From assembly GCA_035651655.1 (NCBI GenBank), contig DASRFG010000002.1:62001-126000 (forward strand): a stretch of DNA of 64,000 bases, in the 5' to 3' direction. Of the stretch, positions 15,405-62,177 are shown piece after piece. How positions within the stretch are numbered: position 1 is the first letter of the stretch; every line of letters starts with the position of its first letter. The translations under genes and the position numbers were made by a program. Below the pieces are notes generated by a model, which did no database searches, had not been told where the DNA came from, and worked only from the letters and a program-made list of their open reading frames with translations. This DNA comes from Terriglobales bacterium (lineage in GTDB: Bacteria; Acidobacteriota; Terriglobia; Terriglobales; Acidobacteriaceae).

Positions 15405-16451
15405 ATGTCGCTGACCAACGCACAGGCCATAGAGCTGTTCCGTTCCGATGACCTGATCGGCATTGGCATGGAAGCGGACGCGGTGCGGCGAAAGCTGCAC
15501 CCCGAAGGCGTGGTCACCTACATCATTGACCGCAACATCAATTACACCAACTTCTGCACCGAGTACTGCACTTTCTGCGCCTTCTACCGCCCCCTGAAAG
15601 GCCCTCAGGCCAAAGAGGGTTACATTCTGGATTTCGAAACCATCTACGAGAAGATCCGCGAGACGGTAGAACTCGGGGGGACGGGTGTGCTGATGCAGGG
15701 CGGACTGCATCCTGACTTAAAGATTGACTGGCATGAGCAAATGCTGCGCGGCATCAAGCAGCGTTTTCCCAAGGTTCACCTGCACTGTTATTCGGCGTCT
15801 GAGATTATCGCGATCGCGGAGTATAGCGGTCTCACTATCCGAGACACCATCGCACGGCTGCGCGATGCCGGCCTGGATTCGATTCCCGGCGGTGGCGCCG
15901 AAATCCTCGACGACGAAGTGCGCTACAAGATCGCCCGCTTGAAGTGCCTTACAGACGATTGGCTCAACGTGCATCGCACCGCCCACCAACTCGGCATGCG
16001 CACAACGGCCACCATGATGTTCGGGGTTGGTGAAAAGCCTGAGCACCGGGTCAACCACTTCAAGCGCTTATATGATTTGCAAGAAGAGACCGGCGGCTTC
16101 ACGGCGTTCATTCCCTGGAGTTTCCAGCCGGCGAATACGGCATTGGGCGGGCGTCACTGGGATGAAGCAACCTCGGTTGAGTACCTGAAAGTCCTGGCGA
16201 TTTCGCGAATCTTCCTTTCGAACTTCCTGAACGTGCAATCCAGCTGGGTCACTCAGGGTTTGAAGGTCTGCCAGATGGGGCTGCGATTTGGTGGCAATGA
16301 CGTCGGTTCCGTGATGCTGGAAGAAAACGTCGTCCGCGCCGCCGGGGTGAATAACTGCACCACGGAAGAAGAGTTGCGGCGCATTATCCGCGATGCAGGC
16401 TTCCGACCTGCGCAGCGAGACACTCTCTATCGTGCCTATTTCCTGAACTGA
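15405..16451 (+). CDS. mqnC: Cyclic dehypoxanthinyl futalosine synthase MqnC
   Basis: Radical-SAM enzyme of the futalosine pathway that cyclises dehypoxanthinyl futalosine; 348 residues, normal length. The iron-sulfur cluster cysteines are Cys51, Cys55 and Cys58 in NFCTEYCTFCAFYRP. Further family marks are IDRNINYTN, LMQGGLHPDLKIDWHE, DSIPGGGAEIL and TTATMMFGVGE. The related MqnE has a different sequence around these positions, so MqnC is the better call. It lies 45 nt after the VTT gene and is followed by 0.7 kb of repeats, which probably marks the end of the mqnA-VTT-mqnC unit. Confidence 0.95.
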   Translation: MSLTNAQAIELFRSDDLIGIGMEADAVRRKLHPEGVVTYIIDRNINYTNFCTEYCTFCAFYRPLKGPQAKEGYILDFETIYEKIRETVELGGTGVLMQGGLHPDLKIDWHEQMLRGIKQRFPKVHLHCYSASEIIAIAEYSGLTIRDTIARLRDAGLDSIPGGGAEILDDEVRYKIARLKCLTDDWLNVHRTAHQLGMRTTATMMFGVGEKPEHRVNHFKRLYDLQEETGGFTAFIPWSFQPANTALGGRHWDEATSVEYLKVLAISRIFLSNFLNVQSSWVTQGLKVCQMGLRFGGNDVGSVMLEENVVRAAGVNNCTTEEELRRIIRDAGFRPAQRDTLYRAYFLN

Positions 16452-32716: not shown

Positions 32717-34168
32717 ATGAGCCTGCCCTCGGTTAGCCCGCAACTGGACACTCCGGCAGTAACGTCGAAGTCGCAGCCGGGTTTAGTGCGCGGGCTGTCA
32801 CTTCTTGATTCCGTGCTGCTGCTGGTGGGCGGCGTCATCGGTTCGTCCATTTTTCTGACGGCAAAAGACATTGCCGGACCTTTGCCGCATCCAGTTTTGT
32901 TCCTTATGGTTTGGGTGGTTGGCGGCGTGGTTTCTCTTTTCGCATGCTTTGCCTTTGCCGAGTTGGGCGCAATGTTCCCGGACTCCGGTGGTCACTATGT
33001 CTATTTGCGCGAAGCTTACGGCGACCTGCCCGCGTTCCTTTACGGTTGGATGCTCTTCTTTATCAGCAACGGTGGCACCATCGCCGCCCTGGGCGTGGCT
33101 TCAGCCGCGTACCTCGGCGAGGCCATCCCAGCGATTTCAAAAGAACACGTGGTGTGGGCTGCATTCGGCCTTCAACTCACCCGCGCGCATCTAGTAGCCC
33201 TTGCCGGAGTGGCGCTGGTCACCGTGACCAACATGATCGGCTTGCGGCGTGGCGCCATTCTGCAAAACATCGCGACCTGGATGAAATTCGCCGCCATGGT
33301 TGTGTTCGTGCTTTTCGGGCTCACCATTGGCAAAGGCTCGTGGTCGCACTTCAGCGCTGACCCGAATGCGGGCGCCAGAGGCTCTGGCCTGCTGATGGGA
33401 TTGGGCCTGTGGCAAATGCTGCCCGCCTTCGGGGTCGCACTCATTGCCGTTTTCTGGGCGTATGACGGTTGGGTTTACATAACCTGGGTATCGGGCGAGA
33501 TGAAGGACCCGCAAAAAAATCTGCCGCGGGCGATCGTATTCGGCGTACTGATCGTGGGTGCGATTTACGTCGCCATGAACCTGGTTTATTTGTATGCCCT
33601 GCCGATAAAAGAGATCGCGTCTACCGAGACAGTAGCTCGCGCCGCCGCTGCACGTCTGTTTTCGAGCGCGGCGGCAATCTGGCTTTCGATCTTGATTGCA
33701 ATCTCGTGCTTTGGCGCCAACGCCAGCTGCATCCTCACCGGCGCGCGGGTTTACTTCGCGATGGCGCGCGACGGGGTCTTTTTTAAGAGGATGGCGGAGG
33801 TGCACCCCGTCTGGCGAACCCCCGCGTTCAGCCTCGCGGGACAAGGGCTCTGGGGTGCGCTGCTGGTTTTCAGCGGGCGTTACGACCAGCTATACACGTA
33901 TGTAATGTTCATGATGGTGTTGTCGTACCTGGCAGGAGTGGGTGCGATGTTTCTATTGCGCTTTAAACGGCCGCTTGCTCCCCGCCCCTACCGCTGCACC
34001 GGTTATCCCTGGCTGCCGGGGATCTATATGCTGATCGGCGGAGCTTGGGCAGTGAACACGCTGCTGCAGCGGCCTAAAGAATCATTCGGCGGCCTGGCAA
34101 TTTTGCTGGTGGGAGTGCCCTGCTACATCTATTGGAAGAGGGCACACAAAAAAAGTGTAATCGGGTAA
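32717..34168 (+). CDS. APC-family amino acid permease
   Basis: Membrane transporter of the amino acid-polyamine-organocation superfamily; 483 residues with about 12 membrane segments. The first helix has the expected broken-helix substrate motif (VGGVIGSSIFLTAKDIAG), and the sequence AELGAMFPDSGGHYVYLREAYG is typical of the LAT-like branch. The substrate, probably an amino acid, cannot be told. It follows the zinc-ribbon gene directly and is convergent with the CADD-like gene. Confidence 0.9.
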   Translation: MSLPSVSPQLDTPAVTSKSQPGLVRGLSLLDSVLLLVGGVIGSSIFLTAKDIAGPLPHPVLFLMVWVVGGVVSLFACFAFAELGAMFPDSGGHYVYLREAYGDLPAFLYGWMLFFISNGGTIAALGVASAAYLGEAIPAISKEHVVWAAFGLQLTRAHLVALAGVALVTVTNMIGLRRGAILQNIATWMKFAAMVVFVLFGLTIGKGSWSHFSADPNAGARGSGLLMGLGLWQMLPAFGVALIAVFWAYDGWVYITWVSGEMKDPQKNLPRAIVFGVLIVGAIYVAMNLVYLYALPIKEIASTETVARAAAARLFSSAAAIWLSILIAISCFGANASCILTGARVYFAMARDGVFFKRMAEVHPVWRTPAFSLAGQGLWGALLVFSGRYDQLYTYVMFMMVLSYLAGVGAMFLLRFKRPLAPRPYRCTGYPWLPGIYMLIGGAWAVNTLLQRPKESFGGLAILLVGVPCYIYWKRAHKKSVIG

Positions 34169-34224: not shown

Positions 34225-34911
34225 TTACTGAATCGCCGGCGTCTTTCTTCTGGCTTCCATTCCATCCAACGCATTCCACAGCGCTCTGGCGGAATTCTCC
34301 GCAGCGGTGAGGGCTTCTTCAGCACAACTCGGATCGCCCGCCACAACTTGGCCCAGTGCATCCCGCCACACCCGAGAATGATGAACATCGGCAGCTTTGT
34401 GAACTACGAAGTAGCGGCAGGCTTGTTCACTGGCGCTGTATAAGTCGCGAAGAGCGCACTCTTTGAACTCGGCGACCCGTGGTACCTGAGATTCGTAGGC
34501 GTAGAACGCGGACAGGGCTGCCGCTGGTGAAGCAGTGCCTGCGATTGACCGAAAATGTGCGATCAACGCCGCGGTTTCGCCGCTCGGCCGGCTGTTTTTC
34601 ACCGCTGAGCGCTGGTTTCCGAAGGCCCCTGCAAAATCCAGCCACAGTTCGGAATGTGCGGTGCCGTCGATCTCCTCGTCGGCCAGGTTGCGCAGCACTG
34701 CGCGGCGCAATTCCCCATCAGCCAGTCGAGAATGCAATGCGCTCAAATACGTTGGGAATGCAGCGACATGATGATAATAGTCGGCCGAGTAGGCGCGAAG
34801 GTCCTCCGCAGTCAGCTCGCCAGCCGACCAGGCCTGATAAAACGGGTGACTTAGAAGATCATACTTCGCGATGCGGCGCTCCAACTGCTCGAAGAAATTT
34901 TGCACTTGCAT
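34225..34911 (-). CDS. CADD-like di-metal enzyme, candidate para-aminobenzoate synthase
   Basis: A 228-residue helical protein of the TenA/PqqC/heme-oxygenase-like fold, closest to the chlamydial CADD group. Chlamydia CADD makes para-aminobenzoate (for folate) from its own side chains using a di-metal site. The six ligands known there are matched by position: Glu79, His86, Glu140, His171, Asp175 and His178. The sacrificed tyrosine and lysine of CADD also have counterparts, Tyr25 (SHPFYQAW) and Lys150 (ten residues after Glu140). The comparison is from memory of the chlamydial sequence. It lies 36 nt downstream of a folate-dependent GcvT-like gene on the same strand. Confidence 0.82.
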   Translation of the reverse strand: MQVQNFFEQLERRIAKYDLLSHPFYQAWSAGELTAEDLRAYSADYYHHVAAFPTYLSALHSRLADGELRRAVLRNLADEEIDGTAHSELWLDFAGAFGNQRSAVKNSRPSGETAALIAHFRSIAGTASPAAALSAFYAYESQVPRVAEFKECALRDLYSASEQACRYFVVHKAADVHHSRVWRDALGQVVAGDPSCAEEALTAAENSARALWNALDGMEARRKTPAIQ

Positions 34912-34947
34912 TTTTGTCCTCGCTTGATGATTGCCAAGTTTAGCAGT

Positions 34948-36150
34948 TTACTTCACCGGCGTGGCGGTCTTCCGCGGTGGATTGAAGAATGGCATCTTCA
35001 CCACGGTGGCCGTGACGGTGTGGCGTACTGCCTCGACCGTGAGTTCGTACTTTAGCTTCGTCCCGGGCTGCGAAGATTCTGCCTGCACGCTGGCGAGGGC
35101 GATCATTTTTTTGAGTAGCGGCGACCAGGTGGTCGAGGTCGCTTTGCCAATCTGTCGCCTTCCGTTGTACACCGGGACCGCAACCCGCGAAGCCGTGCTG
35201 GGGGTCTGGGGCGCCATGCCGGCGTCGTCGAACAGGCGCTCGACTTCGTTCCAGTCAATTTCTAGCCCCACCAGTTGCCGCGGCGTGCCGTCTTTCTGTT
35301 CTTTTAAGAGGGCAGAGCGTCCGATGAAATTCTCTTTATCGAGGTGCACCAGCTTGCCGAGGCCGATTTCCGATGGCGAATACTTCTGCTCGGGAATCAA
35401 AGCTTTTTTGCTGCTGGTGTAATCCACTTCGATCAGGATTAGCCCGGCTTCGATGCGGGCCACGTCGAGGGCCAGCATGCCGGCGGCATGAATATCGAAG
35501 CGGCGGCCGCCTTCCATCAGCGCGTCCCAGACTTTCACCGCGTCGTTCCACGGTATCCAGATCTCGTAGCCGAGATCGCCGGTGTAGCCCGTGCGCGAAA
35601 TGTCCACCGGCACTCCGCCGATCTTTCCTTTGGTGACCCGGAAGTATTTCAAGTTCTCCAGATTGTCAGCTTCGGCGACGGCCTTCAATAGGCGGCCAGA
35701 GGTTGGGCCTTGAAGCGCAAGTGCCGCGACTTTTTCTGAAATGTCTTCGATCTGCACATCCATGCCGAGCGCATTTTGGCGAAACCAACGCAGGCTGGGA
35801 TCGGCGGCAGTCCAGCGATAAGTGTCCTCGCCCAGGCGGGTAATGGTGCCATCGTCAATGACCTTGCCTTCTTCGTCGCACCAGCAGCAATAGATCACCT
35901 GATTGACGGAAACTTTGTTGATGTCGCGAGCAATTACTCGGTTCACCAGGCGGGTGGCGTCTTTGCCGGTGACCATGTACTTGAACAGCGGAGTGATGTC
36001 GATGAGTGCGGCGGCATTGCGGATGGCGTTGTACTCGTGCTCGTGATGTGTCTCGTAAACGCTGACCGTGTAGTATCCCGACCACTCGCGATAGCTGAGG
36101 CTCTGGCAGAGGGGAAAAGTGCGCTCGTGGAATGCGGTTCCGACCGGCAA
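34948..36150 (-). CDS. gcvT: GcvT-like aminomethyltransferase
   Basis: Tetrahydrofolate-dependent enzyme of the GcvT family; 400 residues, a little longer than the usual 360-370. In the glycine cleavage system GcvT releases ammonia from the aminomethyl-lipoyl H protein and passes the carbon to folate. Seen: EHEYNAIRNAAALIDITP, VSVNQVIYCCWCDEEGKV, GPTSGRLL, RTGYTGDLGYEIW and the C-terminal barrel (GRRQIGKATSTTWSPLLKK). gcvH and gcvP are not next to it, so it could be a relative acting on another methylated amine. The CADD-like gene follows after 36 nt. The start is divergent from the flavoprotein pair. Confidence 0.87.
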   Translation of the reverse strand: MPVGTAFHERTFPLCQSLSYREWSGYYTVSVYETHHEHEYNAIRNAAALIDITPLFKYMVTGKDATRLVNRVIARDINKVSVNQVIYCCWCDEEGKVIDDGTITRLGEDTYRWTAADPSLRWFRQNALGMDVQIEDISEKVAALALQGPTSGRLLKAVAEADNLENLKYFRVTKGKIGGVPVDISRTGYTGDLGYEIWIPWNDAVKVWDALMEGGRRFDIHAAGMLALDVARIEAGLILIEVDYTSSKKALIPEQKYSPSEIGLGKLVHLDKENFIGRSALLKEQKDGTPRQLVGLEIDWNEVERLFDDAGMAPQTPSTASRVAVPVYNGRRQIGKATSTTWSPLLKKMIALASVQAESSQPGTKLKYELTVEAVRHTVTATVVKMPFFNPPRKTATPVK

Positions 36151-36326: not shown

Positions 36327-37937
36327 ATGCCTTCCGGCTCAAACTCGAACTACGACGTAATTGTGATTGGCGGCGGCCACAACGGCCTGGTGAACGCCGC
36401 CTACCTGGCGCGCGCCGGAAAGAAAGTTCTGCTGCTGGAGCGCCGCCATGTGCTCGGTGGCGCCGCTGTGACCGAAGAGATCGTGCCCGGGTTTAAGTTT
36501 TCGGTTTGCTCTTACGTGGTCTCACTGTTACGGCCGGAGATCATTCGGGACCTCGATCTGCCCCGTCATGGGCTGGAAATTCTGCCGCTGGATGGAACCT
36601 TCACCCCAATGCCCAACGGCGATCATCTCTGGCGGGTGAACGATCATGCCAAGACGCGGCGCGAAATCGCGCGCCATTCCAAGGTGGACGCGGAAGCTTA
36701 CGAAGAGTTCGGCAAGGCCATGTTGCAGATGTGCCGCTTCGTTAAGCCCATCCTGAACATGACCCCGCCCGACCCATCAACGCTGAATCCGCGCGAGCTG
36801 ATGAAGTTTGTGTTCCTTGGACGCCGCTTCCAGGGCCTCTCCAGCGAGGACAAATACAATCAGGTCCAGTTGATGACCATGAGCGCGGTCGATTTCCTCG
36901 ACCAGTGGTTCGAGACCGATGTGCTCAAAGCGACGATGTCGGCTTCCGGAATCATCGGCACGTTTCTGGGCGTGCGCTCGCCGGGGACTGCGTATGTTCT
37001 GCTGCACCATTACATGGGTGAGATTGACGGTGCGTTTCGGGCGTGGGGATTTGCCCGCGGCGGCACCGGCGCGATCTCCAATGCGATTGCCGATGCGGCG
37101 CGAGAGGCGGGCGTAGAGATCCGCACGAAATCGGCGATAGCGCAAATACTGGTGAAAGATGGCAAAGCCAGCGGGGTTGCGCTGCAGAATGGCGACGAAT
37201 TTCATGCCGACATCGTTTCTTCCAGCGTCGATCCCAATCTGACTTTCCTGAAATTCATCGAATCGCAGCACCTGCCGGGCGAATTCCTGGACGAGGTACG
37301 GCGCTACAAGTTCCGTGGGTCGTCGGGCAAAGTCAATCTCGCGTTGGACGCGCTGCCCGAGTTCAAATGCATGCCGGGAGCCGGAGCGCATCTGCGGGGC
37401 GCGATTTCGATCTCGCCGTCGGTGGACTACATGGAGCGCGCCTATGACGATGCCAAGTACGGCGACTACTCGCGCCGGCCATACATTGACATGGTGATCC
37501 CAAGCCTTACTGATCCTTCAGTGGCGCCGCCGGGCAAGCACGTAATGTCGTGTTTTGTGCAGTACGCTCCCTACAAATTGAAGCCGGGCAGCACCTGGGA
37601 TGCCGCCAAGCGTGAGGCCTTCGGCGATAACGTAATCAACACCATTGCGGAATACGCGCCGAATATTAAAAACATCATCGCGGGCCGACAGGTTTTGAGC
37701 CCGCTGGATATCGAACAAGAATTCGGATTGACCCAGGGCAACATCTTCCAGGGCGAGCTGTCACTCGAACAGTTGTTCTTTCTGCGACCGGTGCCCGGCT
37801 GGGCGCAGTACCGAACGCCGATCAAAAACCTTTATATGTGCGGCTCTGCAACTCATCCCGGAGGCGGCATCATGGGTGCGCCTGGGCGACTCGCGGCGCT
37901 TGAAATCCTCAAAGACTCCGGAAACGGGGCGCACTAG
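36327..37937 (+). CDS. Phytoene-dehydrogenase-like FAD oxidoreductase (PYROXD2 type), copy 1
   Basis: A 536-residue flavoprotein from ATG 36327 (MPSGSNSNYDVIVIGGG); the frame extends to 36231 but the Rossmann fold begins only here. FAD-binding signature VIVIGGGHNGLVNAAYLARAG is followed by ERRHVLGGAAVTEE, and the C-terminal FAD segment is NLYMCGSATHPGGGIMGAPG. It belongs to the CrtI-related group that includes human PYROXD2, whose substrate is poorly known; no carotenoid genes are nearby. A second, related gene starts 3 nt after its stop. The pair looks like an old tandem duplication and is probably co-translated. Confidence 0.88.
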   Translation: MPSGSNSNYDVIVIGGGHNGLVNAAYLARAGKKVLLLERRHVLGGAAVTEEIVPGFKFSVCSYVVSLLRPEIIRDLDLPRHGLEILPLDGTFTPMPNGDHLWRVNDHAKTRREIARHSKVDAEAYEEFGKAMLQMCRFVKPILNMTPPDPSTLNPRELMKFVFLGRRFQGLSSEDKYNQVQLMTMSAVDFLDQWFETDVLKATMSASGIIGTFLGVRSPGTAYVLLHHYMGEIDGAFRAWGFARGGTGAISNAIADAAREAGVEIRTKSAIAQILVKDGKASGVALQNGDEFHADIVSSSVDPNLTFLKFIESQHLPGEFLDEVRRYKFRGSSGKVNLALDALPEFKCMPGAGAHLRGAISISPSVDYMERAYDDAKYGDYSRRPYIDMVIPSLTDPSVAPPGKHVMSCFVQYAPYKLKPGSTWDAAKREAFGDNVINTIAEYAPNIKNIIAGRQVLSPLDIEQEFGLTQGNIFQGELSLEQLFFLRPVPGWAQYRTPIKNLYMCGSATHPGGGIMGAPGRLAALEILKDSGNGAH

Positions 37938-37940
37938 TCC

Positions 37941-39527
37941 ATGGCGCGCGACGTCGTCATTCTGGGAGCGGGTCACAACGGACTGGTCACCGCGTTTTAT
38001 CTTGCCAAAGCTGGTTTCAAGCCTCTGGTTCTAGAGCGTCGCGAGCAACCCGGTGGCGGCGCGGTAACGGAAGAATTCGCTCCCGGATTCCGCTGTTCAA
38101 CCCTGGCTCACGCGGCCGGACCGCTGCGGCCGGAGATCGTGCGCGACATGCGATTGGAGCGGCACGGTCTAAAGATGGTGGAGCCTGAGCTGCGAGTATT
38201 TGCGCCGTCGCCGGACGGCCGCGCGCTATTTCTTTATGGAAATGCTGCGAAGTCGGCGGAATCGATTTCCCGGTTCTCGGCGAAAGATTCGGAACAATAT
38301 CCAGAGTTTCAAAAATCCCTGAGCCGCATTGCGCAAGTATTTCAAAAAGTATTGGCGATGGCGCCGCCCTCCATCGATCACCCGAGCGCGGGCGATCTCT
38401 GGGAAATGCTTAAGGCCGGGAAGGGCATTCGTAATCTCGGCAAGAAAGATATGTACCGGCTGCTGCGTTGGGGGCCGATGGCGGTCGCCGATCTGGCAGC
38501 AGAATTTTTTGAGACCGAGCTGTTGCGCGCTACGGTTGCTGCGCGCGGAATCTTCGGCACGTTCCTCGGACCCTGGTCGGCGGGCAGCAGTACGGTGCTC
38601 CTGATGCGGGCAGCGTCCGATCCCTCGCCCGCTGGTTCAGCTTCCTTTGCGATGGGTGGAATGGGAGCGGTCACTCAGGCCATGGCAGTCGCCGCGCGCA
38701 AGGCCGGAGCCGAGATTCGCACCGGCGCCGAGGTAGCGCAGATCAAGGTGAAAGACGGCGCGGCTACGGGCGTGGTCTTGAAAGGCGGAGAAGAGATCGC
38801 TGCCAGCGCGGTGATCTCGAATGCCGACCCGAAGCGTACGTTACTCAACTTGGTGGATACTGCGCACCTCAGCCCCGATTTTGTCGTGAAGCTGCAGCAC
38901 TATCGCTCCAATGGCACTGTGGCCAAGGTCAACCTGGCGCTTTCGGAGCTGCCGAGATTTACCGCGCTAGAAAAAGCGGGCACGAATGGCGCTGCGCTCT
39001 CTGGCCGCATCCATATTGGACCTGAGATTGATTATCTGGAGCGGGCGTTCGACGACTGCAAGTATGGTGCGTTCTCGCGCGAACCTTACCTGGAAGCGAC
39101 GATTCCTTCTCTGACCGATCCGTCGCTCGCGCCGCGGGGCAAGCACGTGATGTCGGTCTACATGCAGTTTGCGCCGCGGCAGCTTCGGGACAAGGATTGG
39201 AATGGGCAGCGGGATGCGTTGGGGAATGCGGTGGTGAACACGCTGGGGCGCTACGCACCCAACATGAGCTCGATCGTTGAGGGTGGGCAGATCATCACGC
39301 CACAGGACTTGGAAGAAATTTATGGCATGACCGGCGGGCACATCTTTCACGGCGAATTGGCGCTCGACCAGATTTTTACCATGCGGCCGCTGCTGGACTG
39401 GGCGCGATATCGGACACCGATTCGAAATCTCTATCTGTGCGGCTCGGGCACGCATCCAGGAGATGGGCTGACAGGGGCGTCCGGTGCGATCGCGGCGCGA
39501 GAGATTTTGAAAGAGCTGAAGAAATAG
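37941..39527 (+). CDS. Phytoene-dehydrogenase-like FAD oxidoreductase (PYROXD2 type), copy 2
   Basis: A 528-residue paralogue of the preceding gene. The FAD site is VVILGAGHNGLVTAFYLAKAG, with ERREQPGGGAVTEEF and the C-terminal NLYLCGSGTHPGDGLTGASG. Many blocks align with copy 1 (YLERAFDDCKYG against YMERAYDDAKYG; SLTDPSLAPRGKHVMS against SLTDPSVAPPGKHVMS), yet the two differ strongly in the middle, so they diverged long ago. Two subunits of one complex or two steps on one substrate are both possible. Confidence 0.88.
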   Translation: MARDVVILGAGHNGLVTAFYLAKAGFKPLVLERREQPGGGAVTEEFAPGFRCSTLAHAAGPLRPEIVRDMRLERHGLKMVEPELRVFAPSPDGRALFLYGNAAKSAESISRFSAKDSEQYPEFQKSLSRIAQVFQKVLAMAPPSIDHPSAGDLWEMLKAGKGIRNLGKKDMYRLLRWGPMAVADLAAEFFETELLRATVAARGIFGTFLGPWSAGSSTVLLMRAASDPSPAGSASFAMGGMGAVTQAMAVAARKAGAEIRTGAEVAQIKVKDGAATGVVLKGGEEIAASAVISNADPKRTLLNLVDTAHLSPDFVVKLQHYRSNGTVAKVNLALSELPRFTALEKAGTNGAALSGRIHIGPEIDYLERAFDDCKYGAFSREPYLEATIPSLTDPSLAPRGKHVMSVYMQFAPRQLRDKDWNGQRDALGNAVVNTLGRYAPNMSSIVEGGQIITPQDLEEIYGMTGGHIFHGELALDQIFTMRPLLDWARYRTPIRNLYLCGSGTHPGDGLTGASGAIAAREILKELKK

Positions 39528-61739: not shown

Positions 61740-62177
61740 ATGGAGCAATTCGCGGCAGTGCACCGCAAGAACGGCGAAGCGATCCGTTACTTGGTGGTGG
61801 ATGATTCAGTCTTTGCCCGCAAGAACCTGTCTCGCATGATCGAGTCATTCGGTGGCAAGATCGCGGGCGAAGCCGGCGATGGCTGTGCCGCCATCGCTGA
61901 ATACGAGCGGCTCACCCCAGACATCGTGCTTATGGACATCACCATGCCGTTGATGGAGGGCATCGAAGCCGCCGAGCGGATCGTACGGCAGCACCCGGAG
62001 GCGAGAATCGTGATGGTGTCGTCTGTCGGTTACCAGGAAAATATCGTGGCTGCCCTGCAGCGCGGCGCCCGTCACTTTGTGCAAAAGCCGGTCAAGCCCG
62101 AAGTCCTCTACGAGGTAATTAAGTACGTAATGGGAGAAGAATGTGTGGTTGCCAGTGCCGCGACGGGAGGAGCCTAG
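61740..62177 (+). CDS. cheY: CheY-like response regulator
   Basis: Single receiver domain of 145 residues with a 14-residue extension at the front. Acid pocket VVDDSVFARKN, phospho-acceptor Asp66 (IVLMDITMPLMEG), switch residues VSSVGY and Lys in VQKPVKPE. As the only free receiver in the operon it is the likely output protein to the motor or another effector. A purine-rich site (GAGGGAGATT) precedes the ATG; 46 nt after cheB. Confidence 0.92.
   Translation: MEQFAAVHRKNGEAIRYLVVDDSVFARKNLSRMIESFGGKIAGEAGDGCAAIAEYERLTPDIVLMDITMPLMEGIEAAERIVRQHPEARIVMVSSVGYQENIVAALQRGARHFVQKPVKPEVLYEVIKYVMGEECVVASAATGGA

Follow-up and report, generated by a model that had tools for sequence, protein, structure and literature searches.

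The window, a 64,000-nucleotide stretch (positions 62001–126000 of contig C2) of the 4.07-Mb, 99.78% complete genome of a Terriglobales bacterium, carries on its minus strand a gene whose 228-residue product resembles CADD, a 4-aminobenzoate (para-aminobenzoate, pABA) synthase. Upstream of this gene, on the same strand and 36 nt away, lies a gene for a protein of the GcvT/demethylase superfamily, which we designate gcvT-like. An earlier note on this DNA, made from the letters alone, had singled out the pair as a possible folate module; both open reading frames are found on the minus strand at the coordinates it gave, with the neighbours listed in the table. We designate the two flavin-dependent oxidoreductases to the right CRT1 and CRT2. 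No RNA families or tRNAs were found in the window, and promoter and terminator scans of it yielded matches at about chance level.

Table. Features at and around the CADD-like gene (positions of the window)
Feature	Position	Strand	Basis
CADD-family 4-aminobenzoate (pABA) synthase (predicted), 228 aa	34225–34911	−	TIGR04305, PDB matches, predicted fold, residues
GAGGA, ribosome-binding-like motif 5 nt ahead of the CADD ATG	34917–34921	−	sequence inspection
GcvT/demethylase-superfamily paralogue, 400 aa, TTG start	34948–36150	−	Pfam GCV_T, 202.5 bits
APC-family amino acid permease, transcribed towards CADD; borders the inferred CADD insertion on the left	32717–34168	+	AA_permease_2, 193.5 bits
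CRT1, CrtO/phytoene-desaturase-like oxidoreductase dependent on flavin adenine dinucleotide (FAD), divergent from the gcvT-like gene	36333–37937	+	profile matches, orthologue loci
CRT2, second paralogous FAD-dependent oxidoreductase, 46% identical to CRT1	37941–39527	+	sequence comparison

With 219.8 bits, the CADD-like protein scores above the cut-off of 200 set for the NCBIfam model TIGR04305; weaker profile matches were to BesC (47.2 bits) and to the PqqC model TIGR02111 (34.9 bits, cut-off 240). HMMER matched it to Chlamydia trachomatis CADD in the PDB entries 1rcw (6e-40) and 8va9 (8e-40) and to 9pj4, which is labelled “4-aminobenzoate synthase” (2.4e-34), and with a profile as the query these values became 6.5e-62, 2e-61, and 1.3e-60, respectively. 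An AlphaFold2 model, for which 41 relatives were used besides the window protein, had a mean predicted local distance difference test score of 97.3 and predicts, with high confidence, a heme-oxygenase-like helical fold closest to that of CADD. In a Foldseek comparison, the top four PDB matches of this model were CADD chains, with template modelling (TM) scores of 0.87–0.88 by query and 0.93 by target, 1.7–1.8 Å, and 39% identity; PqqC came next, with 18–21% identity and TM scores by query of 0.68–0.88.

The second TIGR04305 match in the genome (45.6 bits) is PqqC itself, whose own gene belongs to a pqqBCE cluster and which scores 331.6 bits against the TIGR02111 cut-off of 240. In the alignment, this PqqC has His and Arg at the positions of Tyr25 and Lys150, the two residues expected to be consumed in pABA formation. 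The possibility that the CADD-like protein is itself a PqqC or TenA was rejected on the profiles, the fold, and the separate PqqC that lacks both residues; the profile scores, PDB matches, fold, and the genome's own PqqC all agree with the earlier placement of the protein with CADD. The pqqBCE cluster lies at locus L139 (G000:C19:107000–114000), and this acidobacterium can probably make pyrroloquinoline quinone.

Six residues of the CADD-like protein, three histidines and three carboxylates (Glu79, His86, Glu140, His171, Asp175, and His178), align with the dimetal ligands of 1rcw and 9pj4, and the two residues predicted to be sacrificed, Tyr25 and Lys150, align with CADD Tyr27 and Lys152. All eight had been named in the earlier note by spacing and motif, and the alignment to CADD and 9pj4 puts each of them where it was claimed. 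We aligned 81 sequences, namely the window protein and the products of 80 of the 82 CADD loci obtained from the genome scan (three partial; gaps set aside). The residue of the window protein is kept at Tyr25 (79/79), Glu79 (81/81), His86 (81/81), Glu140 (80/80), Lys150 (79/80), His171 (80/80), Asp175 (79/80), and His178 (80/80). The sole changes at these positions among the 80 relatives are Lys150Arg in L053 and Asp175Gly in L060. L053 (10001–10750), which has Arg in place of the sacrificed Lys, also deviates at 5 conserved columns, and L060 (5861–6562) has Gly in place of the metal-ligand Asp; the two variants may be either natural inactive forms or sequence errors. The window protein follows the consensus at every one of the 43 columns whose conservation among 77 relatives reaches 95% (the partial sequences L071, L074, and L080 were left out of this ranking and of the tree described below, so that 77 of the 80 loci were used). 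Judged from the alignment, the conservation of these residues is far beyond chance, and the assignment of the window protein as a new and convincing member of the known CADD/PabS family of pABA synthases is well supported.

Two further tyrosines of the window protein, Tyr139 and Tyr167, are the equivalents of CADD Tyr141 and Tyr170. According to PMC13108848, Tyr141 and Tyr170 are the tyrosines in question in CADD, in which the choice of metal is apparently not encoded in the primary ligands, and pABA is formed from Tyr27 and Lys152 with carboxylate oxygens derived from O2. PMC11965152 reports that the Nitrosomonas europaea enzyme NePabS made pABA in vitro with sacrifice of Tyr25 and Lys159, that it uses Fe/Fe, and that the F148Y/F177Y substitutions shift it to Mn/Fe, as in CADD. 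The entry 9pj4 is taken to be NePabS because its alignment shows the same 9-residue offset. Because both Tyr139 and Tyr167 are present, the window enzyme is predicted to use Mn/Fe rather than Fe/Fe. Tyr139 is invariant in the 80 alignment rows that have a letter there, and of the 80 rows with a letter at position 167, 72 have Tyr and 8, all from Pelagibacterales (SAR11), have Phe. These Pelagibacterales proteins (L067, L068, L070, L072, L075, L076, L077, and L078) keep all eight catalytic residues; at the two metal-selectivity positions they combine Tyr with Phe, which is intermediate between the Tyr/Tyr of CADD and the Phe/Phe of NePabS.

By analogy with CADD and NePabS, the reduced Mn/Fe centre, held by the three histidines and three carboxylates, would activate O2, and a radical would then move by way of residues of the Tyr139/Tyr167 type to Tyr25. 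Cleavage would release the side chain of Tyr25, its oxidation would give the benzoate, and the amine would come from Lys150; the enzyme would thus perform one turnover, yielding at most one pABA per protein molecule.

Profile searches found neither PabB nor PabC in this 99.78% complete genome. The PabB model TIGR00553 and the chorismate-binding model PF00425 each match one protein, the same one in both cases, which is TrpE (TIGR00564, 556.9 bits; cut-off 517.7); a hidden PabB was thus considered and rejected, as these two models were answered by TrpE only. This TrpE lies below every PabB cut-off among the matches listed (25 of 26 families) and carries the motif PIAGT, presumably the TrpE-type form, whereas PabB of genome G144 has PIKGT; this was the one PabB motif read, no motif having been found in 3 of the 4 PabB genes fetched. 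The two Aminotran_4 proteins both pass as IlvE and are far below the aminodeoxychorismate lyase cut-offs among the matches listed. FolP (296.1 bits) and FolK (143 bits) are both over cut-off, and the genome should therefore need pABA. The claim that the organism could make pABA without PabA, PabB, and PabC thus stands as a prediction: a CADD-type synthase is predicted, FolP and FolK are present, and the genome-wide search returned only TrpE and two IlvE proteins in place of a pabABC set. The further claim that it would do so without chorismate holds in part. Chorismate would not be the direct substrate, but tyrosine is itself made from chorismate; chorismate would therefore be spared as a direct substrate only, and no competition with the futalosine pathway follows. 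MqnC of the futalosine pathway is encoded in the window (15405–16451), and what links it to the CADD-like gene is co-residence; Chlamydia has both CADD and the futalosine pathway, as the earlier note states.

We then compared 150 related genomes, counting CADD as present at 140 bits or more (a threshold of our own choice, at which G120, G145, and G133, with 59–100 bits, count as lacking it). CADD was found in 60 genomes, PabB over cut-off in 23, and both in 2. PabB is present in 2 of the 60 genomes with CADD versus 21 of the 90 others (Fisher p = 0.0008) and, within the same family only, in 1/56 versus 10/34 (p = 0.0002), both values being uncorrected for kinship. FolP was matched in 146 of the 150. 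PF14518 occurs in all 60 CADD genomes and in 8 others. The model TIGR03461 was discarded as a detector of PabC: among the matches listed it is over cut-off in 2 of the 150 genomes, and mostly other class-IV aminotransferases match it. An mnmG-like gene lies within 10 kb of CADD in 45 of 80 loci, a common setting of CADD in this group.

The gcvT-like protein has the Pfam domains GCV_T and GCV_T_C, and structures have been solved for relatives such as GcvT, trimethylamine N-oxide (TMAO) demethylase, and dimethylglycine oxidase, among others. The scores of the gcvT-like protein stay under the cut-offs of all three GcvT models listed (227.7 versus 300, 167.4 versus 235.85, and 135.9 versus 459 bits), and the NCBIfam profile that matches it best, the one for the C-terminal part of TMAO demethylase, is again below cut-off (299.4 versus 1100). 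The genome encodes three GCV_T proteins, of which one on contig C30, followed by gcvH, passes two of the three GcvT models (447.6 and 394.3 bits for the cut-offs of 300 and 235.85) and misses the third (300 versus 459). A role of the window gene as the T-protein of glycine cleavage was rejected on these scores and on the presence of GcvT proper beside gcvH on another contig; “gcvT-like” survives as a superfamily label and not as a glycine-cleavage assignment. An Asp-Asp pair at positions 99–100, catalytic in GcvT, is present in the window protein, in the 19 orthologues that were aligned, and in the GcvT proper of this genome. By its sequence, the protein is best described as a demethylase-like paralogue.

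Among the matches listed, gcvT-like orthologues with 66–87% identity, some of them fragments, occur in 42 of the 149 other genomes (43 of 150 with that of the window). The genomic context was fetched for 20 of these 43 genomes (loci L119–L138), and 19 orthologues from these were aligned. CRT1 is near the gcvT-like gene and divergent from it in 18 of the 20 loci, a separate CRT2 match (57–82% identity) is present in 15, and a permease of at least 56% identity is nearby in 10. The gcvT-like protein and CRT1, possibly with CRT2, could form a flavin-plus-folate demethylation system.

One of these loci, L120 of genome G041, has the same gene order as the window, that is, methyltransferase (−), permease (+), gcvT-like (−, 84% identical), and CRT1 (+), and in it CADD is absent and 48 bp separate the stop codons of the permease and gcvT-like genes. 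On account of this 48-bp junction, a single CADD gene was probably inserted into the 3′–3′ junction of the permease and gcvT-like genes in the window lineage. The sole TIGR04305 match of G041 scores 47 bits, which is in the range of the PqqC-type matches. A foreign origin of the CADD-like gene could not be argued from composition: its GC content (57.8%) and GC content at third codon positions (60.7%) differ too little from those of seven neighbours (56–60% and 65–73%). Maximum-likelihood analysis of 78 rows joined the window protein to four sequences from acidobacteria (98/85), all five belonging to a clade of 11 acidobacterial rows (99/89); since the protein nests there, the donor or ancestor was probably acidobacterial. 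Two sequences assigned to other phyla also fall among acidobacterial ones: L058, from a Melainabacteria metagenome-assembled genome, lies inside the acidobacterial clade as the sister of L061 (99/92), and L081, from a “Proteobacteria” metagenome-assembled genome, groups with the acidobacterial L069. Their placement reflects either gene transfer or misbinned contigs.

Taken together, the product of the window gene is very probably a pABA synthase of the CADD/PabS type that sacrifices itself, with a predicted Mn/Fe centre; it would feed FolP in a genome from which the searches recovered neither PabB nor PabC. The gene probably landed singly at the permease/gcvT-like junction and is not part of a conserved folate module. 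Several observations weigh against this interpretation. PabB over cut-off and CADD are both missing from 69 of the 150 genomes, and FolP is matched in 67 of the 69, so that the absence of PabB alone is no proof that CADD fills the gap. This class takes in incomplete genomes (e.g., G036, 53%, and G103, 54%); 12 of its members have more than one TIGR00553 match, some perhaps from split genes, and 2 have none, and in the 13 of the 69 that were read, the single chorismate enzyme was in each case a TrpE of the PIAGT type. In addition, 2 of the 60 CADD genomes also have PabB, and 29 of the 150 genomes pass the curated TIGR04305 cut-off, the count of 60 resting on our laxer threshold. The insertion rests on one relative, G041 (approximately 350 contigs, 6% contamination), in which a precise loss of CADD is an alternative that would look alike. 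The end branch of the window protein is long (0.67), and its activity may therefore be altered. A divergent heme-oxygenase-like protein as the general substitute in the genomes with neither gene was rejected because PF14518 occurs in only 6 of the 69, although it is a possible substitute in those six. We therefore raise, with considerable doubt, a wider view in which the pABA step of this Acidobacteriota class is an interchangeable slot filled by PabB (with PabC), CADD, or a third, unrecognised source, CADD having been gained by the window lineage atop that third source or in its place.

The earlier proposal that the two adjacent genes form a functional folate module, with a pABA synthase produced alongside a one-carbon enzyme that uses folate, is improbable. 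The same strand and the 36-nt gap would allow co-transcription, the N. europaea homologue adjoins a putative glyA according to PMC11965152, and the gcvT-like gene is present in 25 of the 60 CADD genomes versus 18 of the 90 others (p = 0.006, phylogeny ignored), although within the same family the co-occurrence is unclear (25/56 versus 11/34, p = 0.28). By contrast, the gcvT-like gene was found in none of the 80 CADD loci (flanks of up to 10 kb, some much shorter; the positive controls worked), and CADD was found in none of the 20 gcvT-like loci, whose usual partner is CRT1. Among the 24 other genomes that have both genes, the two are on separate contigs in 23, where contig ends could mask adjacency in fragmented assemblies, and 1.46 Mb apart by eye in G031; 18 relatives have the gcvT-like gene and no CADD. 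A conserved module of the two genes was rejected on this absence of adjacency across relatives. The gcvT-like gene is probably outside the pABA pathway; it may be co-transcribed with CADD, but beyond that it is a bystander.

The other two alternatives concern the source of pABA. The window protein might be an oxygenase of the HDO/PqqC superfamily with another product, pABA being obtained by uptake or by an unknown route; the long end branch, the weak BesC (47.2 bits) and PqqC (34.9 bits) matches, and the many relatives seemingly without both PabB and CADD are consistent with this. Its CADD matches, however, are far above those to BesC and PqqC in both sequence and fold, Tyr25 and Lys150 are retained, and the genome's PqqC is a separate gene without them, which makes such an oxygenase unlikely. 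That the usual route is instead run by divergent or bifunctional enzymes, with TrpE acting as PabB and IlvE as PabC and CADD being redundant, would agree with the 2 of 60 CADD genomes that also have PabB and with a D-amino-acid transaminase of Mycobacterium tuberculosis that has aminodeoxychorismate lyase activity (PMC8105722). This is very unlikely here: the single chorismate-binding enzyme passes the TrpE cut-off, lies below the PabB cut-offs listed, and has PIAGT rather than PIKGT, and neither aminotransferase comes near the lyase cut-offs listed.

The reading as a self-sacrificing pABA synthase would widen the range of a very unusual enzyme from an obligate intracellular bacterium and a nitrifier, in which it has been studied, to many soil-type acidobacteria, in which CADD looks like a regular replacement of PabABC and not like the economy of a parasite. 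The many natural Tyr/Tyr variants could be used to probe the determinants of Mn/Fe versus Fe/Fe, and in the FolP-containing genomes without a recognised pABA source, an alternative route or cross-feeding of pABA becomes testable. The part most worth following is the pattern of CADD in place of PabB in many relatives, together with the many relatives that have neither. In the open-licence literature we found no on-topic paper that links Acidobacteriota to CADD and folate or to p-aminobenzoate auxotrophy, nor any on folate biosynthesis with pabB missing in this phylum, although an earlier mention is possible; “Acidobacteri-” is absent from the main texts of PMC11965152 and PMC13108848. The NCBI model TIGR04305 would already label such proteins as “CADD family”.

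The gcvT-like protein shares the GCV_T and GCV_T_C domains with GcvT, the C-terminal domain of TMAO demethylase, and dimethylsulfoniopropionate demethylase; it differs from them in that it is a stand-alone protein, falls under every cut-off listed, and has a divergent FAD oxidoreductase gene alongside. PqqC has the superfamily fold in common with the CADD-like protein but only 18–21% identity, and the genome's own PqqC is without Tyr25 and Lys150. NePabS (NE1434) of N. europaea is a member of the same family from an environmental host and has the same sacrificed residues (Tyr25, and Lys159 as the counterpart of Lys150), whereas its Phe148 and Phe177 stand opposite Tyr139 and Tyr167 of the window protein. 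CADD (CT610) of C. trachomatis matches the window protein in fold, in the six ligands, in the sacrificed Tyr and Lys, and in both redox tyrosines. The case of the window differs from that of CADD in three points: (i) the window host is probably a free-living-type acidobacterium, as inferred from its named CADD relatives; (ii) folate biosynthesis genes are absent from the adjacent genes scanned; and (iii) the host-cell apoptosis role of Chlamydia CADD would not be expected for the window protein.

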